DNA from: Sulfurospirillum diekertiae
GTDB taxonomy: Bacteria; Campylobacterota; Campylobacteria; Campylobacterales; Sulfurospirillaceae
Reading direction: 5' to 3'
DNA length: 64,000 nt
Assembly: GCF_011769985.2 (NCBI RefSeq)
Contig: NZ_CP039734.2
Span: 2,232,001 to 2,296,000, forward strand
Shown: positions 14,670 to 23,232 of the stretch, piece by piece
How the letters are laid out: the number at the start of each line of letters is the position of its first letter
How positions within the stretch are numbered: position 1 is the first letter of the stretch
Made by a program: the position numbers and the translations under genes
The notes under the pieces: model-generated
What the model was told of the DNA's origin: nothing
Seen by the model: the letters and a program-made list of their open reading frames with translations, nothing else
Databases searched by the model: none

Positions 14670-15164
14670 CTACTGTGCTGCATAGGCTTCATTTTTATGA
14701 TAGCCCTTAAATTCACCTAGTTCTATTTTACTCAAAATCTGCCAACGACCCGGTTTATTAATTTCAAAAGGTCCAAAGGTATAATTGCCATTTTCTACCT
14801 TAGAAGGTAATAACTGCTTATTATCCTTATTGCTATCAGGGCGAGAGAGCATCATTATAATATTTGCATTATTAACGGCTACTCCACTTTTATCGGTGAG
14901 CTTTAACGTAATGCTATTTTGTCCTATTACAAATTTTTCTGTGGAATAGGCAAGATCAAATTTAGTATCAAACTTTTCCTGTAATGCCATAATTTCATTA
15001 ATATTATTCTCAACCTTTTGATATTTTTCCATATAAAAGGTATCCATCTCAACAGGATTATCAATAGCAATTTTAATGGTATAAGCACACCCAATCACAC
15101 ATCCAATAATCATACCGATAACTACATGAGGATAGTAGGTACGTTCACTTTTCACTTTGTCCAC
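14670..15164 (-). CDS. FixH-family protein, cbb3 oxidase accessory
   Basis: A 164-residue protein with one N-terminal membrane helix (VVIGMIIGCVIGCAYTIKI) and a periplasmic beta-sandwich domain (ITLKLTDKSGVAVNNANI, then NGNYTFGPFEINKPGRWQI), the FixH/CcoG-associated layout. FixH-type proteins assist copper delivery or assembly of cbb3 oxidase. It starts with GTG at 15164, overlapping the preceding gene by 20 bases, and is the last gene of the cco operon. FixH assignment rests on topology, domain pattern and operon position. Confidence 0.7.
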   Translation of the reverse strand: MDKVKSERTYYPHVVIGMIIGCVIGCAYTIKIAIDNPVEMDTFYMEKYQKVENNINEIMALQEKFDTKFDLAYSTEKFVIGQNSITLKLTDKSGVAVNNANIIMMLSRPDSNKDNKQLLPSKVENGNYTFGPFEINKPGRWQILSKIELGEFKGYHKNEAYAAQ

Positions 15165-15765
15165 GGCTTTTTATCCTTTTATAAATGATGAGTATTACAA
15201 CAATCGCCATAAATCCATAAATCAGAAGTCTCACAATATTGATGGTAATTTTATTGGCACTGCCAATGGCACTCTCTAACTCTATTTTACGATACGCTGC
15301 GATCTCTTCAACCAATTCCGCATAGCCATTGAGCAATGCAGGTCCAACACTCACTTCATTTTTTTTAGACGTTAGTAGTGGAATAATCGTACCATTCCAT
15401 GGTAAAGGTGAGAGGAGCGCTTCACGATCAAATTCTTTCTCAAGCCCTGCTGATTGGTATACATCTACTTTTTTTTCTGCTTGAAAAAGCGTTAAAAGCA
15501 CATACGGTGTGGTTAAATTTTTGGCAAAGTTTTGCTCATATGCGAGAATATTTTCACCCTCGCCACTTTTTTTAGCAATCAAAATAACTTTTACACCACT
15601 TTTTGCAAAAAGTTCACTGCCCATCTCTTCAATTTTCTGAGCGGTTCTCTCTTCTAGGCTATCATCATAAATGACAAATTCCTTGGCAAAAATCAACACT
15701 GGGAAAAAGGCAAGAAAGCAAAGAAGCCATAGCTTCTTTGCTTTTACATGTAACAAATTTTTCAT
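15145..15765 (-). CDS. TPM-domain-like membrane protein in the cbb3 operon
   Basis: About 206 residues: a signal peptide (LWLLCFLAFFPVLIFAKEF), a periplasmic domain resembling TPM (EFVIYDDSLEERTAQKIEEMGSEL, then SGVKVILIAKKSGEGENILAYE), and a C-terminal membrane helix (INIVRLLIYGFMAIVVILIIY). I chose the ATG at 15765 because it overlaps by one base the TAA of a 33-codon gene (TAATG), implying coupled translation; an upstream in-frame ATG at 15804 lies inside that small gene. A palindrome copy (15743) reads LHV in the signal peptide. TPM domains occur in proteins tied to photosystem or membrane-complex maintenance; a role in oxidase assembly is inferred from the operon. Confidence 0.65.
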   Translation of the reverse strand: MKNLLHVKAKKLWLLCFLAFFPVLIFAKEFVIYDDSLEERTAQKIEEMGSELFAKSGVKVILIAKKSGEGENILAYEQNFAKNLTTPYVLLTLFQAEKKVDVYQSAGLEKEFDREALLSPLPWNGTIIPLLTSKKNEVSVGPALLNGYAELVEEIAAYRKIELESAIGSANKITINIVRLLIYGFMAIVVILIIYKRIKSRGQSEK

Positions 15766-15866
15766 TAACCGATGAACAAATGGTGTGGTGTTAATACAGC
15801 CCATACCGATACTGCTGCTAGTATAACTAAACCTAGAACAATCACTTTATCCATAATTTCAGCCAT
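15765..15866 (-). CDS. 33-residue single-helix membrane peptide in the cbb3 operon
   Basis: A small gene encoding MAEIMDKVIVLGLVILAAV followed by SVWAVLTPHHLFIG. It has a clear AAGGAG ribosome-binding site before the ATG at 15866, one hydrophobic helix, and a TAA that overlaps the ATG of the next gene. It sits between the DUF4006 gene and the TPM-like gene. I know no named family for it; size and context recall the small helper subunits of terminal oxidases (CcoQ, CydX, CcoM). The coupling and ribosome-binding site make translation likely. Confidence 0.72.
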   Translation of the reverse strand: MAEIMDKVIVLGLVILAAVSVWAVLTPHHLFIG

Positions 15867-15876
15867 GTTATACTCC

Positions 15877-16089
15877 TTATTTTGCTATAACTTTTTGATT
15901 CGCATTCGCAGCATCTCTCATTTGAAGTGCTTGCGGATCCGTAATCTTATAAGGTTTATCAGCAACTGCTTGTTGTGCCTTTAATCCAAAGAATGTTAAT
16001 ACCCCAAGAATAGAGAGCAACAATACTGTTGCAATCAACATTCCTGTAATACCATTAAGTCCAAAGACGTTTCGATTTGTATTTTCCAT
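15877..16089 (-). CDS. DUF4006 family protein
   Basis: A 70-residue membrane protein, NVFGLNGITGMLIATVLLLS then ILGVLTFFGLKAQQAV, with one helix and a short periplasmic tail. DUF4006 proteins are typical companions of ccoNOQP in Campylobacterota and are presumed to help assembly or stability of the oxidase; no function has been shown that I can cite. It lies 10 bases after ccoP and 10 before the 33-codon gene. Confidence 0.8.
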   Translation of the reverse strand: MENTNRNVFGLNGITGMLIATVLLLSILGVLTFFGLKAQQAVADKPYKITDPQALQMRDAANANQKVIAK

Positions 16090-16099
16090 TGATGAGTCC

Positions 16100-16948
16100 T
16101 TATTTTGCTAAAGAGCTGACATAAGTGCCAACCGCTGTTTTTTGAACATTGGTTAAGCGTCCATCATTAAACTGTGGCATATTACCAATCGTTCCTTTTT
16201 TACCCAAACCAAGGACATTGACAACAAATTTAGCATTACCATAGACGCTAAGATCTGGCGCGCTTCCAGCCATTCCTTTACCATCATCACCGTGACATGC
16301 AGCACATGTTGCCCACAGTGCTTTACCACTCTCAACAAGTGCTGGATTGCTACTTTTTTTAACTACAGAAACTTCTTGCATTACATATGCTGCAACGGCT
16401 TTGGCACTTTCTGCATCCAAAAGTCCAGCTGGCATCTCACCAAGAGGATAATTTGAACCTTTTGCACCACCCAGAATAGTAGCAACAATCGCTGCTTCAT
16501 TACCCCATTTGGCTAAGTTCATTGCTTTTCCATTCATGCCATCACCCGTTACACCATGGCATGGTGCGCATTGTACCAAGAAAACGCCCTCACCCATTCC
16601 CATCAATGTAGCATTGTCAGGATTTGCAAATTTACTCTCAAAATGAGTGTTGTAGCTTTTTACTTCTTGGTTATATTCACCTATTTGTGAATAACTCGCA
16701 AGAGGGTATCCAGCAAGGAAATACCATAATCCCCATATAATAACTCCTACAAAGGAGAGTGCCCAACCAATAGGAGGTACATTTTTGTATTCTCCAATAC
16801 CATCCCAATTCTCTTTTGCTAATTCTCCGCTATTTTTATCGGTTTGCATCTGTCTTATATATTTACCAACAACAAAAATAGTGAGAATTAAAATTGCTGC
16901 TGCACCAAGCAATGATAATACGTTTACATTGTCATTCAGCCAATTCAT
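16100..16948 (-). CDS. ccoP: cbb3 cytochrome c oxidase subunit III, dihaem cytochrome c
   Basis: A 282-residue membrane-anchored dihaem cytochrome c that passes electrons to CcoO/CcoN. Two N-terminal membrane helices (LSLLGAAAILILTIFVVG and PPIGWALSFVGVIIWGLWYF) precede two haem motifs, CAPCH and CAACH, each followed by the distal Met-containing segments (EMPAGLL, NMPQFND). Length matches the family. It is the fourth structural gene of the operon. Confidence 0.96.
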   Translation of the reverse strand: MNWLNDNVNVLSLLGAAAILILTIFVVGKYIRQMQTDKNSGELAKENWDGIGEYKNVPPIGWALSFVGVIIWGLWYFLAGYPLASYSQIGEYNQEVKSYNTHFESKFANPDNATLMGMGEGVFLVQCAPCHGVTGDGMNGKAMNLAKWGNEAAIVATILGGAKGSNYPLGEMPAGLLDAESAKAVAAYVMQEVSVVKKSSNPALVESGKALWATCAACHGDDGKGMAGSAPDLSVYGNAKFVVNVLGLGKKGTIGNMPQFNDGRLTNVQKTAVGTYVSSLAK

Positions 16949-16961
16949 TTATTGCTCCTCT

Positions 16962-17171
16962 TTATTCTTTCTCTTTGTTTGATGGAGTACGGGTTTCAAC
17001 TGGAGTATCGTCAATATTGTCATGCAATGCGATATCGCCATATTGCTCATAATTTCGTGTACCTTTTTTTTCAGCCTTGTAAAGGTGATACAAATAACCA
17101 TACATCATTACGACCAAAAAAACTGTAGCTACCACATAAGCATATGCTTGAATTTCTCTAATTGTTTCCAT
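16962..17171 (-). CDS. ccoQ: cbb3 oxidase subunit CcoQ
   Basis: A 69-residue single-helix protein, METIREIQAYAYVVATVFLV then VMMYGYLYHLYKAEKKG, with a charged cytoplasmic tail. CcoQ stabilises the CcoNO-CcoP interaction. I chose the ATG at 17171, preceded by GGTGAG, over a GTG five codons upstream which almost abuts the ccoO stop. Confidence 0.9.
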   Translation of the reverse strand: METIREIQAYAYVVATVFLVVMMYGYLYHLYKAEKKGTRNYEQYGDIALHDNIDDTPVETRTPSNKEKE

Positions 17172-17187
17172 ACTCACCGTGAACACC

Positions 17188-17853
17188 TTATTTTAAGCTA
17201 TTGAGATAGGCAATGAGGGCCACAATCTCTTTGATCTCACCGCGTTTAAATGCCTCTTTAACCTCTTGGCTTTTCATGTCTGCAACAATCAGTGCAGCTT
17301 CTTCCATAACAGCTTTTTTAGCCTCTTCATGGGTACCAAGTTTAGGCATATCAGGTTGATCGTAAGGTGTGTTGAAAACTTTTTTTACGGTCAATGCTTC
17401 TGCGTATGCTGTATCAATGTCAGCAATGTTTTTAAACATATGCTTGTACGCTGGCATAATAGAACCAGGAACAACGCTGATAGGATCAGACATATGATAC
17501 TCATGCCAGTCGCTTGTTCGATAGTTTCCAACCCGCATCAAATCTGGTCCAGTTCTTTTAGAACCCCAAAGGAATGGTCTATCGTAAGCATACTCACCAC
17601 TTAAAGAGTACATACCGTAACGGTCTGTCTCTGATTTGAATGGACGAACCAATTGTGAATGACATGCATTACAGTCATCTTTAATGTAGACTTGACGGCC
17701 TGCTAATTGAAGTACTGTATAAGGCTTTGTACCAACAACTGGACGTGCTGTCTCCATAAAATCAGGTAAAATTGTTACAACACCTGCATATGCAATCACC
17801 AAAAATACACCTACCGCAAAAAAGAATGGGTTTCTTTCTAACCAATGAAACAT
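17188..17853 (-). CDS. ccoO: cbb3 cytochrome c oxidase subunit II, monohaem cytochrome c
   Basis: A 221-residue membrane-anchored cytochrome c of the cbb3 oxidase. One N-terminal helix (PFFFAVGVFLVIAYAGVVTI), then GRQVYIKDDCNACHSQLVRPF with the haem motif CNACH, and PGSIMPAYKHMF containing the axial Met. Position after ccoN and length are standard. Confidence 0.96.
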   Translation of the reverse strand: MFHWLERNPFFFAVGVFLVIAYAGVVTILPDFMETARPVVGTKPYTVLQLAGRQVYIKDDCNACHSQLVRPFKSETDRYGMYSLSGEYAYDRPFLWGSKRTGPDLMRVGNYRTSDWHEYHMSDPISVVPGSIMPAYKHMFKNIADIDTAYAEALTVKKVFNTPYDQPDMPKLGTHEEAKKAVMEEAALIVADMKSQEVKEAFKRGEIKEIVALIAYLNSLK

Positions 17854-17868
17854 AATCCTATCCTCCTT

Positions 17869-19335
17869 TTACGCTGCCATAGGTGAAGCATTTTGAGGTT
17901 CAGCCTCAATTGCTTTACTTACAGTCATTGTTTTATACATATTGTAAGTGAATATGAAGAAACCGACAAGGTATAGTAAACCACCTGTTGCACGAATAGC
18001 ATAGTAAGGAATCAATACAGTCACAGTATCAATAAATGAATAAGCAAGGTTACCAAATTGGTCTGTTGCTCTCCACATCATACCTTGTGTAATACCTGCA
18101 ATCCACATACTTGAGAAATAAAGTACGATACCCGTTGTTTGAATCCAAAATTGTGCTTCAATTAATTTTTTACTGAAAATTTCACGGTTAAACATACGAG
18201 GAGCCATATGATACAGTGCTGCCATGATCATAAAACCAACCCAGCCTAATGTACCATCATGAACGTGTCCAGGAACCCAATCTGTAAAGTGCGCAAGGGC
18301 ATTAACAGATTTAATCGCTAAGATTGGACCTTCAAGAGTACTAAACATATAGAATGTTGAAGCAAAAATCATCAATTTAATCAATGGATTCTCTTTGAGT
18401 TGACCCCACTGTCCTTTCATCGTAAGGAGAATGTTAATCGCACTACCCCAAGAAGGAAGAATCAAAATAATTGAGAAAATTGAACCCATGGTTTGTACCC
18501 AATCTGGAACAGTTGAGTAAAGTAAGTGGTGTCCACCTGCCCAAAGGTATACGAACATCAATCCCCAGAAAGAAAGAAGTGATAGTTTATAAGAAAAAAC
18601 TGGTTGACCAGACTCTTTTGGTAAGAAATAGTAGATCATCGCAATAATAGGCACGGTAAAAATAAATGCTACGGCATTGTGACCATACCACCATTGTACC
18701 ATTGCATCATTTGAGCCTGCATACATAGAAACGGAGTGATACCATTTTCCTGTGCCCGCAACAAAGTAGGTTGGAACTTCCATGTTATTGAAAAGGTACA
18801 ACATAGCAACACCAAGAAATGTTGCAATAAAATACCACATAGAAATATAAAGCGTCTTCTCGCGCCTAATACCAATGAGACCAAAAATATTTAATCCCCA
18901 GAGTACCCATACCACGACAACAAGAATATCCAATGGCCATTCAAGTTCTGCGTACTCTTTAGAAGTAGAAATACCCATAAAAAGGGAAATAACTGCACAT
19001 ACCATTAAAATCATATAGAGCCAAAAATGAAGCTTTGATATGAACATTAAGAATGGTGATTCTGCAATCGAAACCTTGAGTACTCTTTGCCCGATATAGT
19101 ACCACGCTGCAAAGATTCCGCTTAGTAAGAATCCAAAAATTACTCCTGACGTATGTAATGGTCTTAAACGACTGAAAGTACCATATTCACCTGCCAAGTA
19201 ATTCAACTCAGGGAAAGCCATTTGATAAGCGATAACCACGCCTATTAACATACCAACGATTCCAAAAAGGATCGCTGCGTAGGTAAAACATTTGGCTACT
19301 GAATAGTCATAGTTCAATGCATCTCTAGCCTGCAT
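17869..19335 (-). CDS. ccoN: cbb3 cytochrome c oxidase subunit I
   Basis: The catalytic haem-copper subunit that reduces oxygen to water with high affinity. 488 residues with twelve or so helices; LRPLHTSGVIFG holds the low-spin haem His, WWYGHNAVAFIFTVP the CuB His, and GGHHLLYSTVPDW and HVHDGTLGW further haem/copper ligands. An AGGAGG ribosome-binding site precedes ATG 19335; the in-frame TTG before it is unlikely. This is the first gene of an eight-gene operon, pointing to microaerobic respiration. Confidence 0.97.
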   Translation of the reverse strand: MQARDALNYDYSVAKCFTYAAILFGIVGMLIGVVIAYQMAFPELNYLAGEYGTFSRLRPLHTSGVIFGFLLSGIFAAWYYIGQRVLKVSIAESPFLMFISKLHFWLYMILMVCAVISLFMGISTSKEYAELEWPLDILVVVVWVLWGLNIFGLIGIRREKTLYISMWYFIATFLGVAMLYLFNNMEVPTYFVAGTGKWYHSVSMYAGSNDAMVQWWYGHNAVAFIFTVPIIAMIYYFLPKESGQPVFSYKLSLLSFWGLMFVYLWAGGHHLLYSTVPDWVQTMGSIFSIILILPSWGSAINILLTMKGQWGQLKENPLIKLMIFASTFYMFSTLEGPILAIKSVNALAHFTDWVPGHVHDGTLGWVGFMIMAALYHMAPRMFNREIFSKKLIEAQFWIQTTGIVLYFSSMWIAGITQGMMWRATDQFGNLAYSFIDTVTVLIPYYAIRATGGLLYLVGFFIFTYNMYKTMTVSKAIEAEPQNASPMAA

Positions 19336-19344
19336 CAATTCCTC

Positions 19345-19469: not shown

Positions 19470-19503
19470 TAGCAGTACAAGAACGATGGAATTATCGTTC
19501 TTG
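19470..19503 (-). terminator. terminator of the response-regulator operon
   Basis: A perfect 10-bp stem, CAAGAACGAT with a six-base loop and its complement, overlapping the response-regulator stop codon. It is followed on the minus strand by TACTGCTAATTATAAATTTTTTC, a delayed T-tract. Confidence 0.65.
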
Positions 19504-20172
19504 CGTGTTGATTTTGTAGCCAAGACCGGGAATATTTTTGATAAACTCTTTATCTGTTTTTTCACGAACACGCTTAATAAAGGTACGTATGGCTGAATCT
19601 GTTACTTTTTTGTTTGTCCAAACATACTTTTTAATCTCTTCATGAAGGACAAATACACCTAAATTTTTAACAAGAACTGAGATAAAAAGTAACTCTTTTT
19701 TAGTTAAGAAAATTGTTTTACCCTCTTTCACTAAAACCCGTCTACTTTTATCAAACTGATAGCTGTATCCTAATTCAACGATATCACTTTGATCTAACAT
19801 CTCTTTGGAAACAAATTTGAGTGTTGTTAAGAGCTCATCTGGATCAATTGGTTTGATGAGATACTTGTCAATACCAACATCAATCGCCTCTAACAATCGC
19901 TCTTTTTCACTAAATGCACTTAAAATAATAATAGGGGTTTGCTTCGATATATGTTTAATCTCTTTTGCCATCATTAAACCATCCATAACCGGCATCATAA
20001 TATCTGTGACAACAATGTCAGGTTTATACTTTTTGAATTTTTTTAACCCATCATCACCATCACGTGCAACAATGAACTTAGCAAACTCATCCCCGATGGC
20101 GCTCTCTAAGGCATTTCTGAGATCTTCTTCGTCCTCAACAAACAAAACCGTCAATTTTGACAATCCACTCAT
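19492..20172 (-). CDS. OmpR-type response regulator
   Basis: A 226-residue regulator: receiver domain with the acidic pair in FVEDEED, phospho-acceptor Asp57 (VVTDIMMPVMDG) and Lys107 (YLIKPID), then a winged-helix DNA-binding domain (LTKKELLFISVLVKN, then DSAIRTFIKRVREKT and GLGYKI). It follows the histidine kinase gene by 12 bases and is presumably its partner. Targets are unknown; the divergent position is not available because ccoN lies downstream on the same strand behind a terminator, but the oxidase operon is an obvious candidate. Confidence 0.93.
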   Translation of the reverse strand: MSGLSKLTVLFVEDEEDLRNALESAIGDEFAKFIVARDGDDGLKKFKKYKPDIVVTDIMMPVMDGLMMAKEIKHISKQTPIIILSAFSEKERLLEAIDVGIDKYLIKPIDPDELLTTLKFVSKEMLDQSDIVELGYSYQFDKSRRVLVKEGKTIFLTKKELLFISVLVKNLGVFVLHEEIKKYVWTNKKVTDSAIRTFIKRVREKTDKEFIKNIPGLGYKINTQER

Positions 20173-20184
20173 AGCTCTTCCTTT

Positions 20185-21408
20185 TTACTCTTTGACTGAA
20201 GGAATAGTGATAGTGAAACAGACTCCATCATTGCAATTCTCTGCAACGATAAGTCCTTGCATACTATTATTGATAATCATCTTACTCATATAAAGCCCCA
20301 AGCCAGTGCCAGCACTCGCATGTTTTGTTGTAAAATAAGGCTCGAAAATCTTATCTAAAATAGTTGACTCAATCCCACCAGCATTATCGCAGACTTTAAT
20401 TATAGCATCTCCAAGCCCTAATGTGTCAATTTCAATATAAATTAATCTATTTTTTATTTTGTTGTTGCAAAATGCGTCAATCGTATTATTGATTAAATTG
20501 ATTAAGACTTGAGAAAATTCATTAAAATAACCTCTGATGTTGGCATCTTTTTTTATATTAAGCTCGATAGTAACTTCATTTTTTTCTAAAGTACCTCGCA
20601 TAATATCCATTGCTTCGTTCGCCACATGACTTAGCGCAAAAACTTCACTTTGACGATCAGGGCTGAAAAAATGACGGAAATCTTCAATGGTTTCGGACAT
20701 TTTGGAAACAATCTTTTTGGCATGCGCGTAACTGTCTTCAAACTCTATCCCTTTACCTTCATTTTGAAGACGATAGAGCTTGTTCATTTTATAAAGTGTG
20801 ATATTAAGCTCAGAAAGGGGCTGTCTCCATTGGTGTGCAATATTGGCGATCATTTCACCCATCGAAGCAAGACGTGATTGCTGAAATAAAATACGATCTT
20901 TCTCACGATTTTTTTCAACTTCTTCTCTCACACGCTCTTCCAACGTTTGATTGAGGATTGTTAAGGCTTTCGTCTGTTCTTTAACTCTCTCTTCAAGGGT
21001 TTCATTAAGTTCTTCGAGCTCTTCATCTTTGGCTATCAGCGCCTCGCTTAAGCGGACACTTTCTGTCACATCATAACGAATAGCAATAAACTCTTCAATA
21101 TCACCATTTTCATCGAGTATAGGGAAAACTGTCGTATTGACGTAAAACGTACTGCCATCTTTGGCTAGATTTTTAACCGTTGACTTATACGTTTTTTTTT
21201 GAAGTATGGTTTGCCAAAGTTGCTTAAATGTCGAAGCAGGTACGTCAGGATGTCTTACAATATTATGGTTTTTTCCTACTAGCTCTTCTTTAGTATAACC
21301 CGAAATTTTGCAAAACTCATCATTAACAAAGGTGATAATACCGAAAATATCGGTTTTTGAGATAATATTACTGCTTTCAATAGCACTCTGATATTGTTCT
21401 AATTTCAT
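20185..21408 (-). CDS. soluble PAS-domain sensor histidine kinase
   Basis: A 407-residue cytoplasmic kinase without membrane segments. An N-terminal PAS domain (residues about 10-118) has the Aer-like segment KNHNIVRHPDVPASTFKQLW, suggesting redox or oxygen sensing through a cofactor. A coiled coil follows (about 118-175), then the phospho-acceptor His192 in ANIAHQWRQPLSEL, and an HATPase domain with NLINNTIDAF, VCDNAGGI, TTKHASAGTGLGLYMSK. The start overlaps the SafE/TauE stop by four bases. Redox sensing is inference. Confidence 0.92.
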   Translation of the reverse strand: MKLEQYQSAIESSNIISKTDIFGIITFVNDEFCKISGYTKEELVGKNHNIVRHPDVPASTFKQLWQTILQKKTYKSTVKNLAKDGSTFYVNTTVFPILDENGDIEEFIAIRYDVTESVRLSEALIAKDEELEELNETLEERVKEQTKALTILNQTLEERVREEVEKNREKDRILFQQSRLASMGEMIANIAHQWRQPLSELNITLYKMNKLYRLQNEGKGIEFEDSYAHAKKIVSKMSETIEDFRHFFSPDRQSEVFALSHVANEAMDIMRGTLEKNEVTIELNIKKDANIRGYFNEFSQVLINLINNTIDAFCNNKIKNRLIYIEIDTLGLGDAIIKVCDNAGGIESTILDKIFEPYFTTKHASAGTGLGLYMSKMIINNSMQGLIVAENCNDGVCFTITIPSVKE

Positions 21409-22085
21409 ATAATTGCTGCACTGTAACCAAGATACGCCATATAAATTCCATAACCAACAATAATCAATGAAGCTATTTTAATCATAACTTCTCTAAATTC
21501 ACTTCCTTTTAAAAATCCTACAATAAATCCAAGCCCTAACATTGCAGGCATCGTTGAAAGTCCAAAAATAGCCATTGTGAAGCCACCCAAAAGAAAAGAA
21601 CCCGAAGTGGTTGCAGCCGCTAAAAAGAAATAGACTAGACCGCATGGCAAGAAACCATTTAAAAGACCTAGCCCATAAAAACTTCCCATGGATTTAGAGT
21701 GAATGAGATGTGAAAAAAGTGTTTTAATCAAAGGATTAAAAGCGACAGTTGCCTCTAATGAAGTTAAAAATTTTATTTTTCCCATCATTGATAATCCCAT
21801 TAAAACCATAAGAATACCAATGACAAAGTAGAAATAACCATTAATCTGGGCGGAAAAGGTAAAAATACTCCCCAATGCACCAAAAAACATGCCAAGAAAT
21901 GTATAGGCGCTAATTCGTCCTAGATTGTAAGTAAGATGTGCGAGAAATTGTCTGAATGAAGACGTGGAAGAGTCAATCTTAGCACTACTGTATGCCATGA
22001 CAAATCCTCCACACATGCCTATGCAATGCCCTAAACTTCCTAAAAACGCAACACTAATGATTGCTGTAATATCGATGACGTTAAT
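21405..22085 (-). CDS. SafE/TauE-family membrane protein, probable ATT start
   Basis: A six- to seven-helix protein of the urease-accessory/sulfite-exporter type; in cbb3-containing bacteria, members near oxidase genes (CcoS/CcoI-linked SafE types) are associated with metal handling. The family signature FLGSLGHCIGMCGGF is intact only if translation begins upstream of the first in-frame ATG (22016, the Met inside that motif). Upstream to an in-frame TAA there is no ATG, GTG or TTG. An ATT at 22085, seven bases after GGAG, gives (M)NVIDITAIISVAFLGSLGHC, the expected N terminus and first helix. Starting at 22016 gives 203 residues, at 22085 gives 226. Substrate is unknown. Confidence 0.75.
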   Translation of the reverse strand: MNVIDITAIISVAFLGSLGHCIGMCGGFVMAYSSAKIDSSTSSFRQFLAHLTYNLGRISAYTFLGMFFGALGSIFTFSAQINGYFYFVIGILMVLMGLSMMGKIKFLTSLEATVAFNPLIKTLFSHLIHSKSMGSFYGLGLLNGFLPCGLVYFFLAAATTSGSFLLGGFTMAIFGLSTMPAMLGLGFIVGFLKGSEFREVMIKIASLIIVGYGIYMAYLGYSAAII

Positions 22086-22101
22086 GGCATTGCTCCGTTA
22101 T

Positions 22102-23232
22102 TTAAAGTCTATTGGCAAACTCTTGGAAAATGTATCGACTCTCTTGCGGACCTGCACTCGCTTCAGGATGATGCTGTACGGAAAAAATGGGCGAGTTATT
22201 GTATTCAAGCCCCTCAATCGTATTATCAAAAAGATTCACATGCGTAATACGAGCGACCTTACAAATATCATCAGGAACATTGTAATTATGGTTTTGCGTT
22301 GTAATTTCCACAATACTAGTTTTCATATTTTTAACAGGGTGATTACCACCATGTTGTCCAAATTTTAACTTATAGGTCGGATACCCATGCGCAATAGAAA
22401 GTAATTGGTGTCCTAAACAGATAGCAAACATAGGTACTTTTGCTTCAATTAATTTTTGAATTTGTACCGCTTCATCTTTCAAAATAAGTGGATCCCCGGG
22501 GCCATTGGATAAAAAGAGTCCGTGGATTTCACCTTTTTTGTAGCGAGCAATGACATCATCAGCACTAAAATTATGAGGGATAACCTCAACATCAAGTCCA
22601 ACTTCACAAAGTTCATTTAAGATATTGCGTTTAATGCCTAAATCTACGGCAAGAATTTTTTTACCCAATCGTTTAGGTGTGGCATTATACGCTTGAGCTT
22701 CAGCGTCCCAAACACCGTTGACATGGACATAAGATTTTGGAGTGCTGACTTTTTCAATATAGTTGACATCTTCAATACGAGGGCTGGCTTCAAGCATGGC
22801 TTTGAGCTTTGCAGGATCGCTCACTTCTGTTGAAGCGATCATCATTTTAGGGCCTGAATCTCGAATCATTTTGGTAAGATAGCGTGTATCAATGTCACAA
22901 ATACCCATACTTTCATATTTTTTCAAAAACTCGGGTAACGTTTCATGTGAACGGAAATTAGAAGGCGTTTCGTTAAGACTTCGCACAAACATACCGCTCG
23001 CATAAATCGTAGAACTTTCCATATCATTCTCATTGCATCCCACAATACCAATTTCAGGCATTGTAAATACAACAAACTGTCCTGCATAGCTCGGATCACT
23101 CATGATTTCTTGGTAACCACTCATAGAGGTATTAAAAACAATCTCTCCTGTTTTTGAACCATCAAAACCAAAACTTTTTGCTTCTAAAAAAACACCATTT
23201 TCAAGATAAATCCATACAGGTTTTAACATCAT
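22102..23232 (-). CDS. carA: carbamoyl-phosphate synthase small subunit
   Basis: The glutaminase subunit that supplies ammonia for carbamoyl phosphate, used in arginine and pyrimidine synthesis. 376 residues: N-terminal CarA domain (VWIYLENGVFLEAKSFGFDG) and class I amidotransferase domain with FAICLGHQLLSIAHG (nucleophile Cys) and VQHHPEASAGPQES (His and Glu). Overlaps the DUF507 gene end by four bases. carB is not in this window. Confidence 0.96.
   Translation of the reverse strand: MMLKPVWIYLENGVFLEAKSFGFDGSKTGEIVFNTSMSGYQEIMSDPSYAGQFVVFTMPEIGIVGCNENDMESSTIYASGMFVRSLNETPSNFRSHETLPEFLKKYESMGICDIDTRYLTKMIRDSGPKMMIASTEVSDPAKLKAMLEASPRIEDVNYIEKVSTPKSYVHVNGVWDAEAQAYNATPKRLGKKILAVDLGIKRNILNELCEVGLDVEVIPHNFSADDVIARYKKGEIHGLFLSNGPGDPLILKDEAVQIQKLIEAKVPMFAICLGHQLLSIAHGYPTYKLKFGQHGGNHPVKNMKTSIVEITTQNHNYNVPDDICKVARITHVNLFDNTIEGLEYNNSPIFSVQHHPEASAGPQESRYIFQEFANRL

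Follow-up and report, generated by a model that had tools for sequence, protein, structure and literature searches.

Whether a gene can begin at ATT, and whether such a start can persist through a bacterial family, is the question raised by a membrane-protein gene of Sulfurospirillum diekertiae, which is located in the 64-kb window analysed here (contig NZ_CP039734.2, positions 2,232,001 to 2,296,000; the window means this whole stretch, and coordinates without a genome prefix refer to it). The gene belongs to the DsbD_2 family (PF13386) and is probably translated from the AUU at 22085 by ordinary fMet-tRNA (formylmethionyl-tRNA) via a GGAG Shine-Dalgarno (SD) sequence, a weak start that appears to have been kept in the family Sulfurospirillaceae. 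Hereafter, AUH denotes AUU, AUC and AUA (ATH: ATT, ATC and ATA in DNA), and NTG denotes ATG, GTG and TTG. The elements on which the reading depends are as follows.

22083..22085, minus strand: ATT (AUU) read as the initiation codon, the sole candidate between the in-frame TAA and the ATG at 22016
22093..22096, minus strand: GGAG SD, spaced 7 nt from the ATT
22098..22100, minus strand: in-frame TAA closing the frame upstream, seen by direct reading
21405..22085, minus strand: gene of a DsbD_2 (PF13386) multi-helix membrane protein, 226 residues from the ATT, assigned by profile match
22014..22016, minus strand: first in-frame ATG, Met24 of GMCGGF, taken not to be the start, with the invariant H20 and C21 upstream of it

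The minus strand runs CTT TAA (the stop of carA, 22104-22102), A, TAA (22100-22098) and CGG AGC AAT GCC ATT AAC GTC ATC GAT ATT, and the DsbD_2 gene is closed by TGA at 21407-21405. A preliminary description of this DNA had stated that no NTG lies between the in-frame TAA and ATG 22016, and that the ATT follows GGAG by seven bases; both statements were confirmed by direct reading, which showed neither ATG, GTG nor TTG among the 4 codons before the ATT or the 22 after it. The DsbD_2 gene is also the sole open reading frame (ORF) of at least 80 codons in the window that combines an SD and an ATH codon with no in-frame NTG for at least 12 codons. In the equivalent 66-kb stretches of five relatives it was recovered each time, together with a few unmatched candidates. 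A further candidate, L166:6529 (G025), is a 287-residue ORF that has AAAGGA and ATC and runs for 50 codons without an NTG; neither the window nor the other four syntenic stretches yielded a relative.

Every ortholog has the ATG at 22016, which a standard gene caller would meet as its first usable NTG; this favours the rival view that translation begins there, or at scattered downstream NTGs, and that the conserved upstream segment is untranslated. The encoded protein argues strongly in the opposite direction. It matches PF13386 with 169.5 bits against a cut-off of 24.9 (residues 9-215, profile positions 2-199 of 199), and its cysteine motifs C21xxxC25 and P147C148 do not vary among 44 sequences, nor do H20 and C21, which lie upstream of the ATG, across many families. 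Residues 2-23 are under strict protein-type conservation, and helix 1 occupies residues 6-23 of the AlphaFold model (mean predicted local distance difference test score, pLDDT, 81), so that initiation at 22016 would remove the invariant H20 and C21 together with most of this helix; such a downstream start is therefore very improbable. The earlier assignment to the SafE/TauE family was loose, the Pfam match being DsbD_2 in a locus that extends from carA to a cbb3 oxidase. Neither the NCBIfam profiles nor a sequence search of solved structures gave any match to the protein.

Orthologs were gathered from 44 genomes of Sulfurospirillaceae and 399 of the order, supplemented by about 80 further excised loci. 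Among 37 Sulfurospirillaceae species, the carA-linked ortholog has ATA at codon 1 in 18, ATT in 11, ATC in 7 and ATG in 1, so that an ATH codon occupies the same column in 36 of the 37, and most relatives likewise have no usable NTG near it. In the lone ATG ortholog (G034) the start has shifted so that it overlaps carA (TAATG), the upstream region is rebuilt and the SD is weak. The preliminary description had offered a sequencing error, a true ATG recorded as ATT, as the plain alternative, and had named the start codon of close relatives as the check. Since these relatives carry ATT, ATC or ATA at codon 1, and an independently deposited S. diekertiae genome (L031, JPD-1) encodes a 100% identical protein, a sequencing or strain error has a practically negligible probability.

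The orthologous column carries additional information. In the 36 ATH orthologs the first and second bases are fixed and the third base is free from codon 1 on, while the codons upstream lack a coding pattern and contain in-frame stops. Of the 56 rows scored ATH, among them the misregistered G049, 55 have a GGAG/AGGA-type SD 4-8 nt before the start, most often at 7 nt (30 rows) or 6 nt (13 rows). Because the coding pattern sets in at codon 1, the SD is conserved, and H20, C21 and helix 1 are encoded before 22016, ATT 22085 can be taken with high confidence as the translation start, in so far as comparative sequence analysis allows, and the original proposal of an ATT start has held. Two other candidates were discarded, namely the ATA of G049 as a further AUH start, which is misregistered and has an ATG a few codons upstream, and an out-of-frame ATG in GGAGCAATGCC, which is missing from many relatives.

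Outside Sulfurospirillaceae, ATH is found in most sampled f19 species, in f21, f22 and f2, and in one f14 species, and the other Campylobacterales families, which served as outgroups, mostly have ATG, GTG or TTG at the same column. Placing the ATH/NTG label on a 109-protein tree takes 8-9 changes, 2 of which are forced by well-supported branches; as judged from this tree, the label is clustered. Within Sulfurospirillaceae, codon 1 has undergone at least 7 changes on the tree, one of them to ATG. Some g5 genomes, as well as a second copy in G007, harbor an ATG-started DsbD_2 form that is not linked to carA and is nearer to genes of other families (L077, L078, L080, L081, L079). In a relative with 97-98% identity, L011 (G015), a frame break near the DsbD_2 C terminus splits the gene from the kinase start.

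The surroundings of the gene, all on the minus strand, follow the order carA, DsbD_2 gene, PAS-histidine kinase, response regulator and ccoNOP...fixH.

22102..23232, minus strand: carA, carbamoyl-phosphate synthase small subunit (TIGR01368, 424 bits), whose stop lies 16 nt before the ATT
20185..21408, minus strand: PAS-histidine kinase, whose ATG overlaps the DsbD_2 stop (ATGA, 21408-21405)
19492..20172, minus strand: OmpR-type response regulator (PF00072 and PF00486)
14670..19338, minus strand: cbb3 oxidase locus with ccoN, ccoO, ccoP and a FixH/CcoH-like gene
17869-19338 and 17188-17853, minus strand: ccoN (PF00115) and ccoO (PF02433)
16100-16948 and 14670-15164, minus strand: ccoP (PF14715/PF13442) and the FixH/CcoH-like gene (PF05751)

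The DsbD_2 gene is thus located in a cbb3 locus, and because its cluster runs on into the response regulator and ccoNOP...fixH, a role of the protein in cbb3-oxidase or copper assembly or handling is plausible. The proximity of carA invites another explanation, in which termination and reinitiation at carA alone bring the ribosomes and codon 1 needs no strength of its own. The carA stop is only 9-26 nt from the start in many species, the lone ATG ortholog (G034) combines its overlap with a weak SD, and f11 genes show TTATG/TAATG-like overlaps, all of which would fit such coupling. However, the gap in Sulfurospirillaceae orthologs, usually 9-142 nt, amounts to 70-142 nt in many Sulfurospirillum species, so that by no means all AUH orthologs have the carA stop next to or across their start; moreover, f19 includes AUH-start genes without carA detected upstream, and the other AUH-start genes described below do not adjoin carA. 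Since gaps reach 142 nt and f19 genes occur without a detected carA, coupling to carA is, on this comparison, not required for the DsbD_2 start, and reinitiation as the whole explanation is improbable.

The DsbD_2 gene is accompanied by others of its kind. To find them, 1.66 Mb of the genome, equal to 61% of the main contig and holding 1679 gene-like ORFs, was searched for coding signal that reaches past the first NTG on its upstream side and stops at an SD plus ATH. Hits were then checked in relatives; genes having an NTG nearby escape this screen. The ftsK gene (PF01580; G000:C1:1370018 (+), L312; AAAGGATCTATT ATC) has ATC, ATT or ATA in all 28 Sulfurospirillaceae species compared, the family to which this comparison was confined, and in most of them a conserved leader, TTACATGTAAAGGAT, precedes the AUH start. 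A dCache_3 sensor protein (G000:C1:253942(-)) starts with ATH in 19/19 species, and a VTT-domain protein (784804(+)) in 14/19, the rest comprising 3 ATG, 1 GTG and 1 misregistered row. For a radical-SAM protein (323438(+)), ATH is present in 14 of 29 species; another 14 have ATG and 1 has GTG at the same column, where ATC and ATG alternate between species. Of the 1679 gene-like ORFs, at least 5 thus have AUH starts, and from the screen and the checks of ftsK, dCache_3, VTT and radical-SAM genes in relatives it follows that, at the level of sequence, they are a small, kept class in the Sulfurospirillaceae lineage. The preliminary description had regarded ATT starts as very rare, with infC as the known case; this does not hold here, where at least four further AUH gene families occur and infC itself (L069, about 1250) has an apparent TTG start that overlaps the end of thrS, and no AUH codon.

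Several other observations came from the same genome comparison. Candidates such as 1868184 and 16354 were rejected as they look internal, frameshift-like or non-coding, and a substrate-binding-type sensor protein with a signal peptide (G000:C1:282510 (+)), with AAGGAG and ATT and no NTG for 22 codons, is a candidate. A palindrome, TTTACATGTAAA, recurs intergenically upstream of ftsK and the radical-SAM gene and, in L005 and L014, upstream of the DsbD_2 gene, and sometimes overlaps the SD (TTACATGTAAAGGA).

As for how such a start would operate, fMet-tRNA may pair with the AU of the AUH codon at the P site, positioned by the SD. Initiation factor 3 (IF3) discriminates against the AUU/AUC starts of infC and represses non-canonical starts such as the GTC of sigR (PMC5472188), and in Listeria reporters AUA and AUU starts yield less protein than AUG (PMC13068326). 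Because IF3 discriminates against the AUU/AUC/AUA class, the AUH start is expected to be weak; IF3 would destabilise the AUH complexes, and the outcome would be a low set-point of DsbD_2 output. Its 4-nt overlap with the PAS-histidine kinase (21405-21408) is ATGA or GTGA in 27 of 30 relatives, and by translational coupling through this stop/start overlap weak initiation may cap the downstream kinase as well. We infer, therefore, a low, IF3-sensitive synthesis rate of the DsbD_2 protein and an ATGA-mediated limit on kinase translation. An altered initiation tRNA was rejected as explanation, since the initiator tRNA (CAU anticodon) is present and looks normal and neither an altered initiator nor an initiator-like tRNA-Ile was found in the 61% of the genome scanned; RNA structure at the ribosome-binding site was likewise rejected (z +0.85).

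Several points weigh against the reading preferred here. The share of codon-1 changes to G, 1/7, differs little from the G content of four-fold sites (15.6%), and for this reason active selection against ATG at codon 1 lacks statistical support in these sequences. The SD is stronger in ATH rows (mean -6.0 versus -3.9 kcal/mol, p = 6e-7 uncorrected), a difference without support from phylogenetically independent pairs, of which the tree holds too few, and the other four AUH genes of G000 have a merely moderate SD (AAAGGA, -3.8 kcal/mol). The IF3 dependence assumed here is drawn by analogy from other bacteria. As to the product, a PDB fold search gave no confident match (best E 0.095; template modelling score to CcdA just 0.35), and a direct link between the DsbD_2 protein and cbb3 was not found in the literature searched, including that on COG2836/cbb3.

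The near-neutral share of changes to G also speaks for a neutral relic, in which a low need for the protein makes AUH sufficient and codon 1 drifts among T, C and A, and occasionally to ATG, with no regulatory meaning; that the radical-SAM and VTT genes have ATG or GTG in several species points the same way. On the other hand, ATG starts elsewhere are kept by purifying selection, with AUG-to-AUU switches at about 1.6e-5 and few non-NTG starts in the data set concerned (PMC5622118), so that drift of such length would be unusual, and ftsK, usually an important gene, has AUH in 28/28 species. A neutral relic is accordingly an unlikely, if credible, account. Given this active maintenance of AUG elsewhere, the failure of ATG to take over codon 1 is the unusual point of the weakly initiated AUU start preferred here.

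AUH starts are commonly viewed as curiosities, known from infC and a few further genes. In Sulfurospirillaceae several are kept within one bacterial family, including the start of ftsK. What is conserved is the class rather than the codon, which opens to direct test the idea that weak starts are kept as translational set-points under IF3. Gene finders that accept only ATG, GTG and TTG miss AUH starts, so the database entries of these genes probably lack their true N termini; further cases could be sought through conserved coding signal that reaches past the first NTG to an SD plus ATH. It is a tentative proposal that the Sulfurospirillaceae AUH set, at least five families including ftsK and DsbD_2, might constitute an IF3-controlled translational regulon truncated by standard gene callers. 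Literature searches on Sulfurospirillum start codons and ftsK AUH starts gave nothing, and the text of a Campylobacter jejuni ribosome-profiling (Ribo-seq) paper names no AUH starts of such kind.

AUH and related starts are already known as a kind, through infC (AUU/AUC), Listeria rnhC (ATC) and Streptomyces sigR (GTC). The infC gene of E. coli, B. subtilis, Streptomyces and Listeria resembles the present case in its conserved AUU/AUC start and good SD, and its start is discriminated against by IF3 (PMC5472188, PMC1805508, PMC13068326), whereas the DsbD_2 protein is no initiation factor, so that no autoregulatory loop arises. Listeria rnhC and others share fixed non-NTG starts in conserved genes, rnhC being experimentally confirmed (PMC13068326), but were described in one species, while here ATT, ATC and ATA drift across a bacterial family and seldom give way to ATG. 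The sigR start has in common a non-canonical codon with a strong SD, a co-translated gene and genus-wide conservation; it sets the product ratio with the coupled neighbour, and the IF3 effect was demonstrated by mutants (PMC5472188). There, however, the codon is GTC/GTT and the product a sigma factor, and the part of IF3 in the present gene would hold by analogy. The PF13386 proteins of other Campylobacterales families match along their full length, share the invariant HC..MCGG and PCG motifs, and differ in their mostly NTG starts. Compared with these systems, the gene set, the family-wide depth with drift inside AUH, and the presence of several such genes per genome appear to be new within the literature searched.
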